A DNA stretch of 35,804 nt. It comes from Phycisphaerae bacterium. Its GTDB lineage: Bacteria > Planctomycetota > Phycisphaerae > Phycisphaerales > SM1A02. A program made the translations under genes and the position numbers. The DNA is taken from contig VGXO01000032.1 in the NCBI GenBank assembly GCA_016873275.1, positions 1-35,804 on the forward strand, given 5' to 3'. How positions within the stretch are numbered: the first letter of the stretch is position 1; each line of letters begins with the position of its first letter. Positions 1-35,804 of this stretch are shown in pieces. Below the pieces are notes generated by a model. It saw nothing but the letters and a program-made list of their open reading frames with translations, was not told the origin of the DNA and searched no databases.

Positions 1-146
1 AGCCAGCGAGACGGAGGGGAGGTCCGACCAACGGATTGCTCGCCTCGCGCAGCGCTCGCGCACGCAACCCGTCGAAGTTGGTCCCCTCCGTCGCCTCGCT
101 GCGCGAGGCGACACCTCCCCACGGCAGCGCCGTGGGGAGGAGTTCC
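1..146. repeat. Palindromic dispersed repeat block, left-end copy
   Basis: This block matches 35486-35633 near the right end in the same orientation, with scattered substitutions and a 2-nt length difference. It contains perfect hairpins: TCGCCTCGC/GCGAGGCGA with a TGC loop (91-111), and CCTCCCCACGGC/GCCGTGGGGAGG with an AGC loop (114-140). The right-hand copy keeps the 12-bp stem of the second hairpin but has a GAA loop. No gene is supported here: reading frames cross the block but consist of Arg/Ser/Pro-rich shadow translation. Confidence 0.85.
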
Positions 147-296
147 CGAGGTCGCGAGCGTGCGATCGCGCGATCCGAAACTCCGAAACTCCGGAACTCC
201 TCCTCGACCGAGCGCCGCGACGTCGGGGAGGCGTGCACGAGAGTCAACGCCTCCCCCGCGAGTCGCCGCGCGACGAGCCGGAGAGTTCTGGAAGAC
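147..296. repeat. Degenerate hairpin repeats downstream of the NHL lipoprotein gene
   Basis: The stretch holds further diverged members of the repeat family. One is a CTCCTCGACC...GTCGGGGAG stem near 196-225. Another is a unit beginning GAGTCAACGCC at 241, which resembles the next unit beginning GACTCAACGCC at 294. The second unit runs into the 3' end of the lipoprotein gene. No protein-coding gene is seen. Confidence 0.6.
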
Positions 297-29678: not shown

Positions 29679-29873
29679 ATGAGCACGCACGGACACGATC
29701 GAAATCACCCCCACCACCACGGTCACGGCGGCACGCCGACCGCCCGCCGTCGGAAGACGCTCCTGATCGTCGGGGTGATCCTGATGCTCATCGCCATGGC
29801 GGCGTACGTCCTCTCGATGGACGAGGCGCTCGCGCCGGGCGAGGAGGGTCAGGCGGTCCCGGCGGCGCCCTGA
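29679..29873 (+). CDS. Tiny His-rich single-pass membrane protein
   Basis: The 64-residue product has six His among the first sixteen residues (MSTHGHDRNHPHHHGH), then a basic stretch (TARRRK), one transmembrane helix (LLIVGVILMLIAMAAYVLSM) and a short acidic tail. A Shine-Dalgarno and -10-like box are present upstream. The His cluster could bind Cu, Ni or Zn. The basic residues before the helix place the His-rich end in the cytoplasm by the positive-inside rule. No named family is recognised. Confidence 0.65.
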   Translation: MSTHGHDRNHPHHHGHGGTPTARRRKTLLIVGVILMLIAMAAYVLSMDEALAPGEEGQAVPAAP

Positions 29874-29887
29874 CCAGCGCGCGACCC

Positions 29888-29976
29888 TTCACCTCTCCCG
29901 CGAGGAGCGCCGCGACGAGCGGGAGAGGTCGCCTCGCGAACGCAGTTCGCGAGGCGGGTGAGGGTGGTACGACTCG
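29888..29976 (+). repeat. 89-bp hairpin repeat, copy 1
   Basis: It matches 30563-30651 at a constant 675-bp offset with only a few differences. It contains CTCTCCCGC...GCGGGAGAG and the perfect hairpin CGCCTCGCGAAC/GTTCGCGAGGCG with a GCA loop (29930-29956), ending GGTGAGGGTGGTACGACTCG. Confidence 0.9.
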
Positions 29977-30120
29977 AAGCAAGCGTCGCGGGGCCCACGC
30001 GTGACGACGACGCCGGTCTCCGAGCATCGTGCTTCGGACCACCCCCACCGGGCTTCTCGCTGCGCTCGGATCCCGACTCCCCCGCGTCGCTCCGCGCGCG
30101 GGAGCGTGACGGGCTCATGC

Positions 30121-30333
30121 GGGTCCGCCACGAACCTCGACGGTGCGGGCGGGACGCCCGCGGTCCACCTTCGGAATCAGCTGCCGTCCTCCAGTCGGAC
30201 CTCCTCCGCGGGCTCCGCGCTCTCCGCGCGAGGAGGTTCGTCGGTGGGCGTGCGGCGACCATCCGACGATCGGGTTCTCGCGCAGAGAGCGCGGCGGACG
30301 CGGGGGACTCCTTCACCTCTCCCGCGAGGAGCG
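30121..30333 (+). repeat. 213-bp direct repeat, left copy flanking the BACON gene
   Basis: It matches 35157-35369 in the same orientation without gaps and with about four substitutions. It includes the hairpin GCGGGCG/CGCCCGC with a GGA loop (30145-30161). The two copies bracket the minus-strand gene at 30671-34918. Confidence 0.92.
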
Positions 30334-30581
30334 GGAGTTCTCACGCAGAGACCGCGGCGGACGCGGGGGACTCCTTCACCTCTCCCGCGAGGAGCGGGAG
30401 TTCTCACGCAGAGACCGCGGCGGACGCGGGGGACTCCTTCACCTCTCCCGCGAGGAGCGGGAGTTCTCACGCAGAGACCGCGGCGGACGCGGGGGACTCC
30501 TTCACCTCTCCCGCGAGGAGCGGGAGTTCTCACGCAGAGACCGCGGCGGACGCGGGGGACTCCTTCACCTCTCCCGCGAGG
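30275..30581 (+). repeat. 63-bp tandem repeat, about 4.9 copies
   Basis: Units begin at 30275, 30338, 30401, 30464 and 30527. Units 2, 3 and 4 look identical; unit 1 differs by a few bases and unit 5 breaks off into the hairpin repeat. Each unit contains the hairpin CTCCCGC-GAGGA-GCGGGAG. The 63-bp period is a multiple of three, so frames stay open through it, giving false long reading frames. Confidence 0.95.
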
Positions 30582-30651
30582 CGTGCCGCGACGAGCGGGA
30601 GAGGTCGCCTCGCGAACGCAGTTCGCGAGGCGGGTGAGGGTGGTACGACTC
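30563..30651 (+). repeat. 89-bp hairpin repeat, copy 2
   Basis: It is the second copy of the 29888-29976 element, with the same hairpin at 30606-30632. It ends 19 bp before the stop codon of the BACON gene on the opposite strand and could act as a 3' hairpin for its mRNA. Confidence 0.9.
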
Positions 30652-30670
30652 GCGACGATCGTCGATTCGA

Positions 30671-33600
30671 TCAGCAGTCCTCGCCCCACGCCGACAGCAG
30701 TTCGGAGAGGTCCGCGCCATCGACGAGACCGTCGAGGTTCAGGTCCGCCCCGCACTCGACGCAGGCACCCCACGAGCCGAGCAGCAGCGTGAGGTCCACG
30801 CCATCCACGCGACCGTCGAAGTTCAGGTCGCCCGGGCAGACCTTCATCGCCGCGTCGGGCGGCAAGGGCGGCGAGGGCGGCAGACCCAACTCCCACGTCA
30901 CCGTGCACCCCGACGGCACCGAGCAGTGCGGGGACATGGCACCGAAGCGATCGCCGTAGGTCGAGACGTAGAGCGGCGTCGAGTAGAGCGAGGTGCCGGG
31001 GATTTGTCCGAGGTCCTGCGAGTTCCACAGCGTGTTCGTCCACGTGTCCCAGTTCGACGATCCAGCCTGGAAGAACGAGTTCGACGGCGTCACGCCGTAG
31101 GCGGGAAATGTCCCGCAGGTGACGGTGGTCCCGGAGGCGGTGATGTTTTTGAAGAGGAACGACGATCCTTCGCCGCCAGGCTGGGGACTCCAGGTTGGCG
31201 TGAGCATGCCGTAGATCATCGCGGTCGAGATCGACCCGATCATCGACTTCAGGATCTCCTGATAGGAGCCGCCCGGTCCCGTGTAGGTCGCGATCCCGCC
31301 CGGCCCCAGTCCCGCCGCATCGAGCGTGCTCACCGGTCCAATCCCGTAGTCCGGCAGCCCGCCCGCCGCGATGCAGTTGAAGGGATCCCCCGTCACGATC
31401 ACTCGTGAGGTAAAGAGCCCGTAGAGATTCTGCGTGGGTCCGCCGGCACAGTTCAGGTCGTCGTTCAGCAGCGGATCGCCGTCGGGCAGGATCGTGAGCG
31501 TCCCCTGATAGAGGGTACCGGCGGAGGGTGTCGCGTAGAACGGGCAGCGGACGGTAGAGTTCGTGTCGAGCTTGAAGTTCGTGAGCTTCAAGCCGTATCC
31601 GGTGTTCGGAACGCCCGTCGGACCCACGTACGTCGACTTGTAGACGTGCATCGTGAACGAGAAGCCGTTGTTGCCGCTGTAGTCGAGGTAGTAGCCCTGC
31701 GTGTTCTGCGCGCTCTGGTAGAGCGTCTGGAGATAGGACTGGAACGACTGACCGTACAGCTGAAGCATCTGGTTGGGCTCGCCACTCGTGATCGTCACCA
31801 GGCTCGTGCCGTTGCTTCCCGCGAAGCGATAGGGGTGTTGACCGTCGATCGCGGGGACGCCGGTCGAGACGAGGACCTTGGGCGATCCGTGGCCGTAGGT
31901 GCAGTTGTTCGTCACGTAGTCCGCCGGCACTCCGCTGCAGTTCTGCGACGAGGCGCCGGGGCTGCATCCGATCGGTGGTCCGTAGATCGCCGGATCCGGG
32001 TAGCTTGCCGTGGTCCCGTACGCCGTGGCGAGGGAATGCAGGATCGTCTCCGCCACCACGCCCTCCTTGAAGCCGCTGCGGGCCGTGATCACGCCGCTGT
32101 TCGCGATGGTGATTCGGCAGGGATAGGAGAACTGGTCGATGTTCTGGAGGTCGCAGTTGGGATCGTTCGCGGAGAAGGTCCACTCGAAGGCCGCGTAGGC
32201 GAGGTCGGTGGCATAGCAGGTTCCGGCGCTCGACGCCGGGTGCGGCTTCGGAGCACTTGGCGGCTGGCATCCGCTGATCACCGCGTAGATCGCCCCGTTG
32301 GCGGCGTTCTGCTGCGCGAAGACCTGCCCCCCCCGCACGTCGCAGAGCTTCAGGTAGGTGCCCTCCGACCACGTCGTCGGGCTCCCGCAGCCGCTGCTCG
32401 AGGGGTAGTACTGCACCGTGCCCCCGGCGCCGGCGTTGAGGTAGAGCCAGATGTCGTCGGAGCAGACGTTCTGCCCGAAGTACTCGGTGAGGTGCTCGAA
32501 GTTGTTCTGGATCTGGATGGTCGCGTAGGTGCCGGCGGGCGCCGGGCAGGCCGATACGACGCAGGGCGTGCACGGGACGCTGCCCTCCGCCTGATGGACC
32601 GTGATCGTCGACTGCACCGAGCCGCCCTGACTGACCGCGATCGTCGCGCTCCGCGTGGCGCCAGAGTTCGTGGCAACGCTGTAGTTGATGGTGCCGTTGC
32701 CGGTCCCGCTTGATGATCCATTGCTGATCGTCAGCCACGCGTCGCTCGCCTGCGCCGACCACCCGCAGGTCGCGTCGGTCGAGACGCCCACCGAGCCGCA
32801 CCCGCCACCCGCGTCGACCAGCACGGTCGTGCCGTTCGGGGGCGCAGTCGTCAGCGGGCACGCGACGCTGCCCGCCGCCTGCTGGACCGTGATCGTCGAC
32901 TGCACCGAGCCGCCCTGACTGACCGCGATCGTCGCGCTCCGCGTGGCGCCAGAGTTCGCGGCGGCGGTGTAGTTGATGGTGCCGGCGCCGGTCCCGCTTG
33001 ATCCAGAGGTGATCGTCAGCCACGTGTCGCTCGCCTGCGCCGACCACACGCAGGTCGCGCCGGTCGAGACGCCCACCGAGCCGCTCTCGCCACCCGCGGC
33101 GACCTGCACGGTCGTGCCGTCGGGGGGCGTCGTCGTCAGCGTGCACGGGACGCTGCCCGCCGCCTGCTGGACCGTGATCGTCGACTGCACCGAGCCGCCC
33201 TGACTGACCGCGATCGTCGCGCTTCGCGCGGCGCCAGAGTTCGCGGCGGCGCTGTAGTTGATGGTGCCGGCGCCGGTCCCGCTTGATCCAGAGGTGATCG
33301 TCAGCCACGCGTCGCTCGCCTGCGCCGACCACCCGCAGGTCGCGCCGGTCGAGACCTGCACGGTGCTGGTTCCCCCTGCCGCGACGACCTGCACGGTCGT
33401 GCCGTCCGGGGGCGTCGTCGTCAGCGTGCACGGGACGCTGCCCGCCGCCTGCTGGACCGTGATCGTCGACTGCACCGAGCCGCCCTCCGGTCCCTGACTG
33501 ACCGTGATCGTCGCGCTCCGCGCGGCGCCGGTGTTCCGGCGGATCCGGATCCCGATCGTCTCGGTGCCCGTGCCGAGCACGGCCGTTCCCGTGCCGCTCT

Positions 33601-34918
33601 GCGAGCGAAGGGCGATCCAGTCGTCGGGATCGCCCGGCGGGTCCGTGGAGGCGATGACTGCCGACCACGCGCAGGTCGCGCCGGTCGAGATCTGCACGGT
33701 GCTGGATCCCCCTGCCGCGGCGACCTGCACGGTCGCGCCGTCCGGGGGCGTCGTCGTCAGCGTGCAGGGGACGCTGCCCGCCGCCTGCTGGACCGTGATC
33801 TGCGACTGCACCGAGCCGCCCTGACTGACCGCGATCGTCGCGCTCCGCGTGGCGCCAGAGTTCGCGGCGGCGGTGTAGTTGATGGTGCCGGCGCCGGTCC
33901 CGCTTGATCCAGAGGTGATCGTCAGCCACGTGTCGCTCGCCTGCGCCGACCACACGCAGGTCGCGCCGGTCGAGACCTGCACGGTGCTGGTTCCCCCTGC
34001 CGCGACGATCGGCACGGTCGTGCCGTTGGTGGGCGCAGTCGCAAGCGAGCAGCCGCCACTGATCCCCTCAAGCGAGAGCGAGATCGAGCAGAATCGCGCC
34101 GCGGAGCCACGCTTATCGTCGCACGGATTGATCCAGCAGTTGCCGATCGTGGTGCCCGACGGGACGTTCCCGAGACCGCTCGGCCAGGCGGCGGGAAACT
34201 GCGTGCAGTTTCCAGCGCTCGTGGGAACGCCCGGTCCCGCATTGGCGGCGGGGATCCAGGCTATGGCAATCCGCACCGAGGAGTCGATCACGAGCGATCC
34301 GCCTCCCGCCGTGGTCGAGCTGAAGTTGGAGTCGCCGCCCGGCAACGGACCCGTGCAGGCGTCGAAGTCGCCGGGCGTGCCGCCCGCGCAGCCCGCGAGC
34401 AGCGATCCCGTCGAGCTGGTGGGCCCGCACGTGCCGGGGACTCCCGCCTGATCGCTCGACGCGAGCCACGGGAACGGTTGATCGTTGTGCTTGGGCCAAG
34501 GCTCGCTTCCGCCGATCTGGAGGAGCACCGTGACCTGCTCGCCCACCTCGCGATAGAAGAGCACCGCGAGGTCCTTCGCCTTCGGCTGGATCGCGCAGCC
34601 TCCGGTCTGCCACCCGGGGTACAAGCCTTCATTGCAGAAGTTGCCCCTCCAGAAGCAGGTGGTCGCGCTGAGCATGACCTGCTGCAGAGTGCCCTCAACC
34701 TGGATGGTGTTGGAACTGACGGGGCCGTTCGCGACGACCAGCGGTTCGGAGCCCATCTGAACCGCCTCGCACGCGTCGCCGAGGAGGGGGATGAGTCCGA
34801 TCTGGAGGTTCGGCACGTCGGTCGAGTCGCCGACGGGAACGACCACGTCCGCCGCGAGCGGCGACGCCGTGGCGATGGCGACGAGGAACGTCGAGGCAAG
34901 ATGGCGCATGTGCTGCAT
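30671..34918 (-). CDS. Very large secreted protein: five BACON repeats, GH64-like region, dockerin-like tail
   Basis: The product is 1,415 residues from the ATG at 34918 (GGAG 6 nt upstream). An ATG at 34945 with GGAGG four nt upstream is an alternative adding nine residues. A signal peptide (RHLASTFLVAIATASPLAA) is followed by a unique Cys-rich domain (to about 285). Five BACON-like repeats of 95-112 residues (about 290-780) share CVWSAQASDTWLTITSG, RSATIAVSQGG and TVQQAAGSVPC. A large region (785-1340) contains YAAFEWTFSAND and NIDQFSYPC (near 925), resembling the VDQFG-P segment of GH64 beta-1,3-glucanases and their thaumatin-like relatives. The tail (about 1360-1415) has two dockerin-like loops (GDLNFDGRVDGVDL, ADLNLDGLVDGADL). 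A secreted polysaccharide-binding or cleaving role is inferred; catalytic residues were not identified. Confidence 0.85.
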   Translation of the reverse strand: MQHMRHLASTFLVAIATASPLAADVVVPVGDSTDVPNLQIGLIPLLGDACEAVQMGSEPLVVANGPVSSNTIQVEGTLQQVMLSATTCFWRGNFCNEGLYPGWQTGGCAIQPKAKDLAVLFYREVGEQVTVLLQIGGSEPWPKHNDQPFPWLASSDQAGVPGTCGPTSSTGSLLAGCAGGTPGDFDACTGPLPGGDSNFSSTTAGGGSLVIDSSVRIAIAWIPAANAGPGVPTSAGNCTQFPAAWPSGLGNVPSGTTIGNCWINPCDDKRGSAARFCSISLSLEGISGGCSLATAPTNGTTVPIVAAGGTSTVQVSTGATCVWSAQASDTWLTITSGSSGTGAGTINYTAAANSGATRSATIAVSQGGSVQSQITVQQAAGSVPCTLTTTPPDGATVQVAAAGGSSTVQISTGATCAWSAVIASTDPPGDPDDWIALRSQSGTGTAVLGTGTETIGIRIRRNTGAARSATITVSQGPEGGSVQSTITVQQAAGSVPCTLTTTPPDGTTVQVVAAGGTSTVQVSTGATCGWSAQASDAWLTITSGSSGTGAGTINYSAAANSGAARSATIAVSQGGSVQSTITVQQAAGSVPCTLTTTPPDGTTVQVAAGGESGSVGVSTGATCVWSAQASDTWLTITSGSSGTGAGTINYTAAANSGATRSATIAVSQGGSVQSTITVQQAAGSVACPLTTAPPNGTTVLVDAGGGCGSVGVSTDATCGWSAQASDAWLTISNGSSSGTGNGTINYSVATNSGATRSATIAVSQGGSVQSTITVHQAEGSVPCTPCVVSACPAPAGTYATIQIQNNFEHLTEYFGQNVCSDDIWLYLNAGAGGTVQYYPSSSGCGSPTTWSEGTYLKLCDVRGGQVFAQQNAANGAIYAVISGCQPPSAPKPHPASSAGTCYATDLAYAAFEWTFSANDPNCDLQNIDQFSYPCRITIANSGVITARSGFKEGVVAETILHSLATAYGTTASYPDPAIYGPPIGCSPGASSQNCSGVPADYVTNNCTYGHGSPKVLVSTGVPAIDGQHPYRFAGSNGTSLVTITSGEPNQMLQLYGQSFQSYLQTLYQSAQNTQGYYLDYSGNNGFSFTMHVYKSTYVGPTGVPNTGYGLKLTNFKLDTNSTVRCPFYATPSAGTLYQGTLTILPDGDPLLNDDLNCAGGPTQNLYGLFTSRVIVTGDPFNCIAAGGLPDYGIGPVSTLDAAGLGPGGIATYTGPGGSYQEILKSMIGSISTAMIYGMLTPTWSPQPGGEGSSFLFKNITASGTTVTCGTFPAYGVTPSNSFFQAGSSNWDTWTNTLWNSQDLGQIPGTSLYSTPLYVSTYGDRFGAMSPHCSVPSGCTVTWELGLPPSPPLPPDAAMKVCPGDLNFDGRVDGVDLTLLLGSWGACVECGADLNLDGLVDGADLSELLSAWGEDC
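32573..34050 (-). repeat. In-gene DNA repeats encoding five BACON-like domains
   Basis: Corresponding points recur at 32601, 32889, 33174, 33459 and 33795, giving periods of 288, 285, 285 and 336 bp. Repeats 1, 3, 4 and 5 are almost identical at the DNA level over long stretches; repeat 2 (about 33433-33760) has a 17-residue insertion and a diverged middle. The high DNA identity suggests recent duplication or gene conversion. Confidence 0.9.
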
Positions 34919-35156
34919 GAGCGGCTCCGGCGAGAGAGGTTGCATGCCGCCTCCGGTCAGGCTGAACGACGGCACCAAGGAACATACCTCCAGAGACCGT
35001 TTGAACCACCACGCCGCGGAATTTTTTGAGCCAGTTTGAACCAATTCTGACCCGATAGTGGGAGCGGGGGACCACGTCGAAGGCGGCGGGTCAGCTCGAA
35101 CCACGCCGCTGATCGAAGACGTCGCTCGGATTGACCGCCGACATCCTGCCCGCATC
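34919..35156. promoter_or_regulatory. Upstream region of the BACON gene with a direct repeat
   Basis: This region is unusually AT-containing for the window (including TTTTTT near 35022). The 10-mer GTTTGAACCA occurs at 34999-35008 and 35034-35043, exactly 35 bp apart in the same orientation. It could be a pair of operator half-sites for the minus-strand gene. No clear -10/-35 pair was assigned. Confidence 0.4.
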
Positions 35157-35369
35157 GGGTCCGCCTCGAACCTCGACGGTGCGGGCGGGACGCCCGCGGT
35201 CCACCTTCGGAATCAGCTGCCGTCCTCCAGTCGGACCTCCTCCGCGGGCTCCGCGCTCTCCGCGCGAGGAGGTTCGTCGGTGGGCGTGCGGCGACCACCC
35301 GACGATCGGGTTCTCGCGCAGAGACCGCGGCGGACGCGAGGGACTCCTTCACCTCTCCCGCGAGGAGCG
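35157..35369 (+). repeat. 213-bp direct repeat, right copy flanking the BACON gene
   Basis: It is the partner of 30121-30333, offset by exactly 5,036 bp. The copy is followed by one partial 63-bp-type unit and then the right-end palindromic repeats. Confidence 0.92.
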
Positions 35370-35380
35370 CCGCGAGGCGC

Positions 35381-35804
35381 ACTCCGGAACTCCTCCTCGA
35401 CCGAGCGCCGCGAGGTCGGGGAGTCGTGTTCCGGAACTCCTCCCTGACGGAGCGAAGCGACGTCGGGGAGGTGGCTCGCTGGCGAAGCCAGCGAGACGGA
35501 GGGGAGGTCCGATCAACGGATTGCTCGCCTCGCGGAGCGCACGCAAGCACGCAACCCGTCGGAGTTGGTCCCCTCCGTCGCCTCGCTCCGCGAGGCGACA
35601 CCTCCCCACGGCGAAGCCGTGGGGAGGAGTTCCAAAGCGCACCACGTCGAGATCGCGCAGTCCGGAACTGCTGAACCCCGGAACTCCGGAACTCCTCCTC
35701 GACCGAGCGCCGCGAGGTCGGGGAGTCGTGTTCCGGAACTCCTCCCTGACGGAGCGAAGCGACGTCGGGGAGGTGGCTCGCTGGCGAAGCCAGCGAGACG
35801 GAGG
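35381..35804. repeat. Right-end palindromic repeat cluster with 302-bp periodicity
   Basis: 35381-35502 recurs at 35683-35804 with no visible difference (122 bp, offset 302). Between them lies the partner of the left-end block (35486-35633). Hairpins include CTCGCTGGC/GCCAGCGAG (35475-35495, and again at 35777-35797) and CCTCCCCACGGC/GCCGTGGGGAGG (35601-35627), each with a GAA loop. The last 17 bases of the window equal the first 17. No gene is supported in this stretch. Confidence 0.9.

Follow-up and report, generated by a model that had tools for sequence, protein, structure and literature searches.

A BACON-domain protein gene among dispersed intergenic repeats of a Phycisphaerae bacterium, and its probable entry outside a dedicated mobile cassette

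A large gene encoding a BACON-domain protein probably landed in dispersed intergenic repeats, and not in a dedicated mobile cassette, in the genome of an uncultured Phycisphaerae bacterium (assembly GCA_016873275.1; the window, i.e., the whole analyzed stretch of DNA, comprised 35,804 nt of contig VGXO01000032.1). The direct repeats flanking this gene represent one composite, REP-like intergenic repeat, present here in two copies, which has expanded in the source species. Judging by gene order, and subject to the assembly, the BACON gene is an insertion between genes that are adjacent in sister species. The case illustrates that a gene landing among dispersed intergenic repeats can give rise to a conspicuous "cassette" geometry.

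Structure of the repeat blocks and of the gene between them

The direct repeats belong to a 214-nt family (D4), with copies at 30120–30333 and 35156–35369 in the same orientation (98% identity, 4 mismatches, exact run in common of at most 131 bp, start-to-start distance of 5,036 bp). The second copy was matched with an E-value of 2.3 × 10−102, far past chance expectation, and just these two copies gave a full-length match among 40 scored places (277 candidates). The interval between them contained one large gene, that of the BACON-domain protein. The initial annotation, which described near-identical 213-bp direct repeats 5,036 bp apart around a single large gene, was thereby confirmed, with the limits accurate to within one base; the further repeats that it mentioned nearby were also present, namely, a 63-bp tandem array, a 103-bp repeat (29886–29988 and 30562–30664, 93% identity) and a 122-bp exact repeat (35381–35502 and 35683–35804). 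The repeat blocks proved longer than the limits given there, occupying 29877–30664 and about 35110–35804 (contig end). The features are as follows:

1–288, + strand: E module at the opposite contig end, the same repeat closing the contig on both sides
29679–29873, + strand: small conserved ORF (64 aa), left neighbor; its counterpart lies directly 5' of a methyltransferase gene in two congeners
29877–30119, + strand: modules D (29882–29976, strong hairpin) and x (29977–30119), the start of the left block
30120–30333, + strand: left 214-bp repeat copy, composed of modules A, B and the first C
30274–30588, + strand: 63-bp tandem array of module C, five units, with a 229-bp exact run at offset 63
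30562–30664, + strand: second D module, ending 6 bp from the stop codon of the BACON gene
30671–34918 (end approximate), − strand: gene of the secreted-looking BACON protein
35110–35155, + strand: module u, found 5' of A in several of the other genomic copies
35156–35369, + strand: right 214-bp repeat copy
35376–35804, + strand: hairpin-rich E modules reaching the contig end

The left block begins 3 bp past the stop codon of the 64-aa ORF, for which the Pfam scan gave no match. By eye, the genes are convergent at the left block and codirectional at the right block. Modules D (29886–29988), B and E folded far better than shuffled sequences (z = −4.65, −3.97 and −4.67, respectively), and modules A and C were unexceptional relative to shuffles (z = −0.11 and −0.69).

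The protein comprises a signal-peptide-like N-terminus (identified by eye), an N-terminal region without assignment, five BACON stretches, a rare central domain (about 30860–32560) and a C-terminal dockerin-like domain. Of the "BACON/GH64-like/dockerin" description given initially, the BACON part was supported by Pfam (PF13004, 141.6 bits against a cut-off of 25, five stretches), whereas both other parts remained below the cut-offs: the dockerin scored 14.9 of 22.9 bits in Pfam and 20.9 of 29 in NCBIfam (dockerin_GC), the window protein had no GH64 match in Pfam at E-values up to 1, and its homologue in genome G042 scored 17.6 bits against PF16483 (cut-off 27). The AlphaFold2 model made with a view to a GH64 fold, built from a two-row alignment, was poor (mean pLDDT of 33), and sequence searches of the PDB returned just weak dockerin and chance matches. 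The homologue in G042 was the only one found for the central region among 200 other genomes of the order, and an alignment search of genome contigs likewise gave a single match, G042 contig VGXR01000067.1; the search across the phylum, in which two candidates were scored per genome, was dominated by the G042 dockerin and added little to this result. The window protein was matched in 23 of 24 other family members, mostly, among the matches listed, through its C-terminal domain. Judging from the BACON, weak GH64 and dockerin-like matches, export of the product is probable, as is its binding to polysaccharides or their degradation.

Dispersal of the repeat family and gene order in related species

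Parts of the repeat were matched at 40 scored places in the source genome (G000), 33 of them outside the contig of the window. The E module had 135 matches in G000 versus five and one in the two congeners (sister species G001 and G002, respectively), and the D-x module had 110 versus one and one, these counts including pieces and opposite-strand palindromic matches, and the matches in the congeners being short. In 1.18 Mb of G001, no N-free 24-mer recurred in at least five 2-kb bins, although N runs in this sample (13 bins) could mask repeats there. In the stretches examined, most blocks are located in spacers, and some overlap predicted ORFs. The repeat had no match in the plasmid search, and its best Rfam match was below the threshold (20.4 of 50 bits). 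No account of this family was found among the titles and abstract openings listed for planctomycete repeats, REPINs and related subjects.

Pairs of copies with at least 97% identity on the same contig numbered 39, of which 38 had a spacing of 63–946 bp and only the pair around the BACON gene a spacing of 5,036 bp; in this count, the overlapping modules D and D-x are entered separately, and far pairs beyond the fetched stretches are missed. The next-best A-B match to either 214-bp copy had 85% identity. Near-identical copies thus follow a pattern of local tandem duplication, by which the family would mostly have multiplied. Copies with at least 97% identity also occurred across different contigs (13 pairs for E and seven for D); together with the missed far pairs, this means that near-identity alone does not prove past tandem adjacency. 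REP-like repeats are heavily expanded in one species and nearly absent in two congeners, with no recognized REP transposase.

In both congeners, the genes of a zinc-finger protein, the small ORF and the methyltransferase adjoin one another, with 77 and 173 bp separating the small ORF from the methyltransferase gene. Neither the BACON gene nor a repeat module was found in this spacer in G001 and G002. In the source genome, the methyltransferase gene opens contig C116, the first 95 bp of which are identical to the last 95 bp of the window. The proposal of cassette insertion therefore holds as regards addition of the gene at this site, since the flanking genes are adjacent in both congeners, but finds no support as regards a dedicated cassette; the suggested search for an empty site with a single repeat revealed, in these two congeners, a site free of the gene and of any repeat copy.

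Genes adjacent to repeats matched the G001 sample as often as other genes (16/71 versus 19/84, P = 1.0); the values were 12/71 versus 17/84 after removal of L039, the locus fetched for the BACON-gene site, and 12/65 versus 7/66 after removal of both L039 and the BACON-locus genes, although the comparison is weak, the sample covering about 37% of G001 and being non-random (several contigs were chosen from prior matches). That repeat-adjacent genes are not rarer in the congener sample is evidence against a dedicated cassette system. Other bracketed genes, a search for which was recommended in the initial annotation, were also found. A large gene on contig C54 (1323 aa, AMP-binding), chosen for its direct E-repeat brackets, had full-length relatives in G013 and G007 and none in either congener, which favors the initial proposal, and large accessory genes may on this basis be associated with repeat brackets. 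Syntenic genes, for instance a methyltransferase–hydrolase pair, are bracketed by the repeats as well, and at C8:57020 and C15:22902, the two genes that flank the block stand next to each other in G001. The circumstance named there as refuting a cassette combined repeats scattered genome-wide with no relation to accessory genes and presence of the gene at the same place in all relatives. The repeats are dispersed with no general link to gene gain, and the BACON gene is absent from this site in both congeners.

Origin of the repeat-flanked arrangement

Since 38 of the 39 near-identical pairs lie no more than 946 bp apart, the BACON gene probably arrived in a block of tandem repeats, by entering it or by recombination. 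This is the preferred reading. Judging by synteny, and subject to the assembly, a repeat block was acquired in the spacer that separates the small ORF from the methyltransferase gene, and the BACON gene was added there too. Most likely the gene slipped in where two tandem units met, or incoming DNA carried a repeat that recombined with a resident one by a RecA-type process; either route would leave near-identical direct repeats flanking the gene. The repeats most likely serve as a permissive or recombinogenic target and not as a mobility module of the BACON gene, and their hairpins may terminate transcripts of the preceding genes.

Excision or duplication between the 214-bp copies is geometrically possible, and the direct orientation, the 131-bp exact run common to the copies, the lack of the BACON gene at the congeners' site and the further large accessory gene that direct repeats enclose on C54 are consistent with a 5,036-bp unit that moves by homologous recombination between these copies, entering or leaving a one-copy site. 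Such a unit is nevertheless rather unlikely, since the congeners' site has no repeat copy, syntenic genes are bracketed as well, and the repeats have no general link to gene absence. The broader view that species-specific hairpin repeats act as recombination portals, through which large accessory genes (BACON, C54) come and go bounded by repeats and free of transposases, the traffic being carried by a REP-like family expanded in a single species, is considered doubtful; if the repeats were entry points for large genes, they would represent a transposase-free route of gene gain in planctomycetes.

The contigs break in repeats, so that a misassembly or an excised circle is possible. If the gene had been misjoined across a repeat, the true order would be the small ORF, the repeat block and the methyltransferase gene, with the BACON gene elsewhere. 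E repeats stand at both ends of the contig, a repeat lies within 100 bp at 20 of 26 contig ends (a set picked for repeats), exact repeats of 131, 166 and 229 bp occur inside, and the start of C116 has a further overlap, with the start of C26 in reverse (in a comparison covering part of the 136 contigs). Against this, the small ORF, the left block and the gene follow one another on the contig with no break, and its right end exactly overlaps C116, the contig predicted by synteny; an assembly artefact is judged unlikely.

Comparison with known mobility systems

The absence of transposases and integrases from the interval, as initially reported, was borne out for the BACON gene and for seven further long ORFs of 29849–35601, none of which had such a match in Pfam. 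The genome does contain an integron integrase (C10:4780–5733, 375.9 bits, cut-off 265), and a single gene amid species-specific hairpin repeats resembles a chromosomal integron cassette. However, no attC-type core pair was found in either repeat block or in two other tested blocks, whereas the same scan found one site in C10:1–6000, about 4 kb from the integrase; the tandem modules differ from attC, and the integrase is located on another contig beside an attC-like site of different sequence. The hypothesis that this integrase inserted the gene, with the repeats as attC sites, was rejected for lack of attC cores in the repeat blocks and retains next to no credence.

Two near-identical direct copies flanking one accessory gene are also reminiscent of a composite transposon or a MITE pair, but no transposase was found in the scanned ORFs, and the copies belong to a dispersed family. 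The spacer of the congeners has diverged too far to mark the ends of the insertion. Transposition of the REPIN/RAYT or MITE type, carrying the gene between two elements, would accord with REP-like hairpins in many, mostly intergenic, copies; it is very improbable, as the source genome had no match to PF01797 (Y1 transposase/RAYT), the one transposase family searched genome-wide, while the control was positive in five of 14 genomes. The repeat family was not assigned to REPINs for this reason.

The protein itself is similar to secreted BACON proteins with a C-terminal dockerin-like (GC-type) domain in its BACON array, which exceeds the cut-off, and differs from them in the dockerin match below the cut-off and in the central domain, which a single one of the 200 other genomes of the order also encodes. 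With REPs and REPINs, the repeats share the features of being hairpin-forming, extragenic, high-copy, lineage-specific and often clustered (PMC3116915, PMC3733652). The relevant passages of PMC3733652 describe REP families lacking a tag, a class (CGTC) that has no transposase of its own, the occurrence of REPs in Planctomycetes and a REP length of 20–40 bp. In comparison with these, no Y1 transposase was found here, the units are longer composites (about 50–240 bp) arranged in tandem arrays, and one block holds a 4.2-kb gene.

Repeat pair, large gene and the site in congeners

The direct repeats on either side of the large gene, initially annotated as near-identical, about 213 bp long and 5,036 bp apart, proved real: two 214-bp copies (30120-30333 and 35156-35369) lie in the same orientation at a spacing of 5,036 bp and have an identity of 98%, with four mismatches and a longest exact run of 131 bp. 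The left copy comprises modules A, B and the first C of a REP-like intergenic repeat, whose modules (A, B, C, D, x and E) were assigned their letters in the present analysis. The left block is longer than the repeat first recognized, starting 3 bp past the stop of a small ORF (29679-29873, plus strand) and ending 6 bp short of the large gene's stop codon.

29877-30664: left block, with module order D, x, A-B-C, a 63-bp tandem array of C, second D
about 34918 (start) to 30671 (stop), minus strand: large gene, one ORF, with a signal-peptide-like start judged by eye
about 35110 to the contig end: right block, continuing as E modules

The description of this gene as BACON/GH64-like/dockerin held for BACON, found in five stretches of the protein (141.6 bits, cut-off 25), and less so for the other two parts: the C-terminal end was dockerin-like below the cut-off, and the GH64 match, of a homologous protein from G042, reached 17.6 bits, under the cut-off of 27. 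This homologue of the central region (37% identity; contig VGXR01000067.1, "Planctomycetota bacterium") was the only one in 200 further genomes belonging to the order. The predicted structure model used to look at the fold was of poor quality. The DNA for the BACON domains consists of near-identical units, each about 285 bp long (32466-34086, with a 174-bp exact repeat at 32897/33803), which suggests recent intragenic domain duplication. The C-terminal dockerin-like domain recurs across many proteins of family f1 genomes; matches to the large-gene protein were present in 23 of the 24 other family members, and most of those listed were to this domain.

In both congeners, G001 and G002, the gene order is zinc-finger protein, small ORF and methyltransferase gene (which we take to be trmB), with gaps of 77 and 173 bp, respectively, between the last two; neither locus contains a large gene in this gap or a match to any repeat module. 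The window's zinc-finger copy scored 27.4 bits for PF06689 (cut-off 27), and the methyltransferase copy on contig C116 of the genome studied (G000) scored 138 bits for PF02390. Among the other family members examined, these two genes are no more than 700 bp apart in G004, G005, G008, G009 and G014, in varying orientation; the G011 stretch examined had no methyltransferase match. In G000 (a draft of 3.23 Mb in 136 contigs, the window being all of C32), the methyltransferase gene is at the very start of C116, whose first 95 bases are the last 95 of the window. Since the congener spacer is short and these ends match, about 6 kb (repeats and one gene) occupies the spacer position in G000. Insertion of the gene at this site, as had been proposed, is borne out by the adjoining flanking genes of both congeners; the empty site with a single repeat was not recovered, as the congener site lacks any repeat module as well as the gene.

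The end of C14 and the start of C5 overlap similarly by 117 bp. A second overlap, of 100 bp, joins the start of C116 to the C26 start in reverse complement; therefore, the C32/C116 junction rests equally on synteny and on sequence, as judged from a subset of contig ends. Repeats occupy window positions 1-288 and 35381-35804 and likewise the ends of C116, C26, C5, C14 and others; a repeat was found within 100 bp in 20 of 26 contig ends examined, a set chosen for repeats. Because contigs break inside these same repeats, the placement of the large gene is provisional.

Dispersal of the repeat family

The 213-bp repeat had 40 scored matches in G000 (of 277 candidates), seven of them on C32, whereas in 24 relatives it gave one weak 52-bp match, in G015 (with up to 32 candidates scored in each genome). 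Counts that include pieces and opposite-strand palindromic matches were 135 for the E module in G000 versus five in G001 and one in G002, and 110 versus one and one for D-x; E was not found in G015, nor D-x in G042. Stretches of G000 chosen for repeats (266 kb) contained 402 24-mers present in at least five 2-kb bins; in a 1.18-Mb sample of G001, where N runs in 13 bins could hide some repeats, the only such 24-mers were those of N runs. Modules D, B and E folded into hairpins well past shuffled sequences, and A and C did not. In the C15:22602-23146 block (L057), A units follow one another in tandem about every 46-49 bp, which shows expansion of the modules in the form of small arrays.

Gene calls, made with a simple caller that missed some genes, flanked both sides in 32 of 53 blocks (13 convergent, 13 codirectional and 6 divergent), compared with 25, 71 and 21, respectively, when all neighbouring calls across the same stretches were counted (Fisher test, convergent versus rest, P = 0.04; convergent versus divergent, P = 0.41). 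For gene 3' ends, a block edge lay within 60 bp in 19 of 52 cases; for 5' ends, the figure was 6 of 32.

Origin of the bracketed gene

In the stretches examined, 38 of 39 same-contig copy pairs with at least 97% identity were spaced 63-946 bp apart (overlapping modules being counted separately), and the sole exception was the pair around the large gene; the closest other copy to either A-B copy of the window was 85% identical. On the simplest reading of these sequences, the copies were once tandem neighbours between which the gene would have come, or an incoming gene bearing its own repeat would have recombined into a resident one. Pairs of at least 97% identity on different contigs (13 E and 7 D) count against such local pairing of near-identical copies. 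The repeat-gene-repeat geometry most likely reflects, in the main, insertion of the gene into a spacer rich in dispersed repeats.

A broader role, with hairpin repeats acting as recombination portals for large accessory genes without a dedicated transposase, is given a low probability. When 155 gene calls from the G000 stretches were compared with the G001 sample (about 37% of that genome, non-random; presence taken as at least 55% identity over half the gene length), 16 of 71 repeat-adjacent genes and 19 of 84 others were found (P = 1.0). Without the stretch taken for this locus (L039), the values were 12/71 and 17/84 (P = 0.68), and without the genes of this locus as well, 12/65 and 7/66 (P = 0.22). 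Both neighbours lay on one G001 stretch for 2 of 50 blocks, C8:57020 and C15:22902, and adjoin there, 85 and about 256 bp apart; thus, these blocks arrived without a gene. The search for other genes between repeats gave a divided answer. An LPMO gene with an E block on one side and a D-x block on the other (C7:77732) has a G001 relative (77.6%), and the methyltransferase gene and its hydrolase neighbour, with E blocks on either side on C116, are syntenic in the congeners, whereas a 1323-aa AMP-binding/PP-binding/hexapeptide protein gene on C54 (L084:445-4416), the single further large gene, picked for its bracketing direct E repeats, has a full-length relative in neither congener (relatives: G013, 48%; G007, 41%). 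As both large bracketed single genes examined (2/2) are absent from both congeners, the portal idea stays alive.

Mobility enzymes and known repeat classes

In agreement with the initial annotation, neither the large gene nor any of seven further long ORFs within the interval or close to it matched a transposase or integrase in Pfam; a Y1 transposase was not found in G000 by PF01797. An integron integrase well over the curated cut-off is encoded at C10:4780-5733 (L077), and an attC scan placed an attC-like site some 4 kb away (C10:644-725); together they are a chromosomal integron in this planctomycete. Applied to four repeat blocks, both of those in the window and two others, the same scan gave no site.

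REPs and REPINs are described as hairpin, extragenic, lineage-specific repeats, with REP classes that include one without a dedicated transposase and with REPs occurring in Planctomycetes (PMC3116915, PMC3733652). The G000 repeats resemble REPs, but no RAYT was found in G000, and they are therefore termed REP-like and not REPINs.
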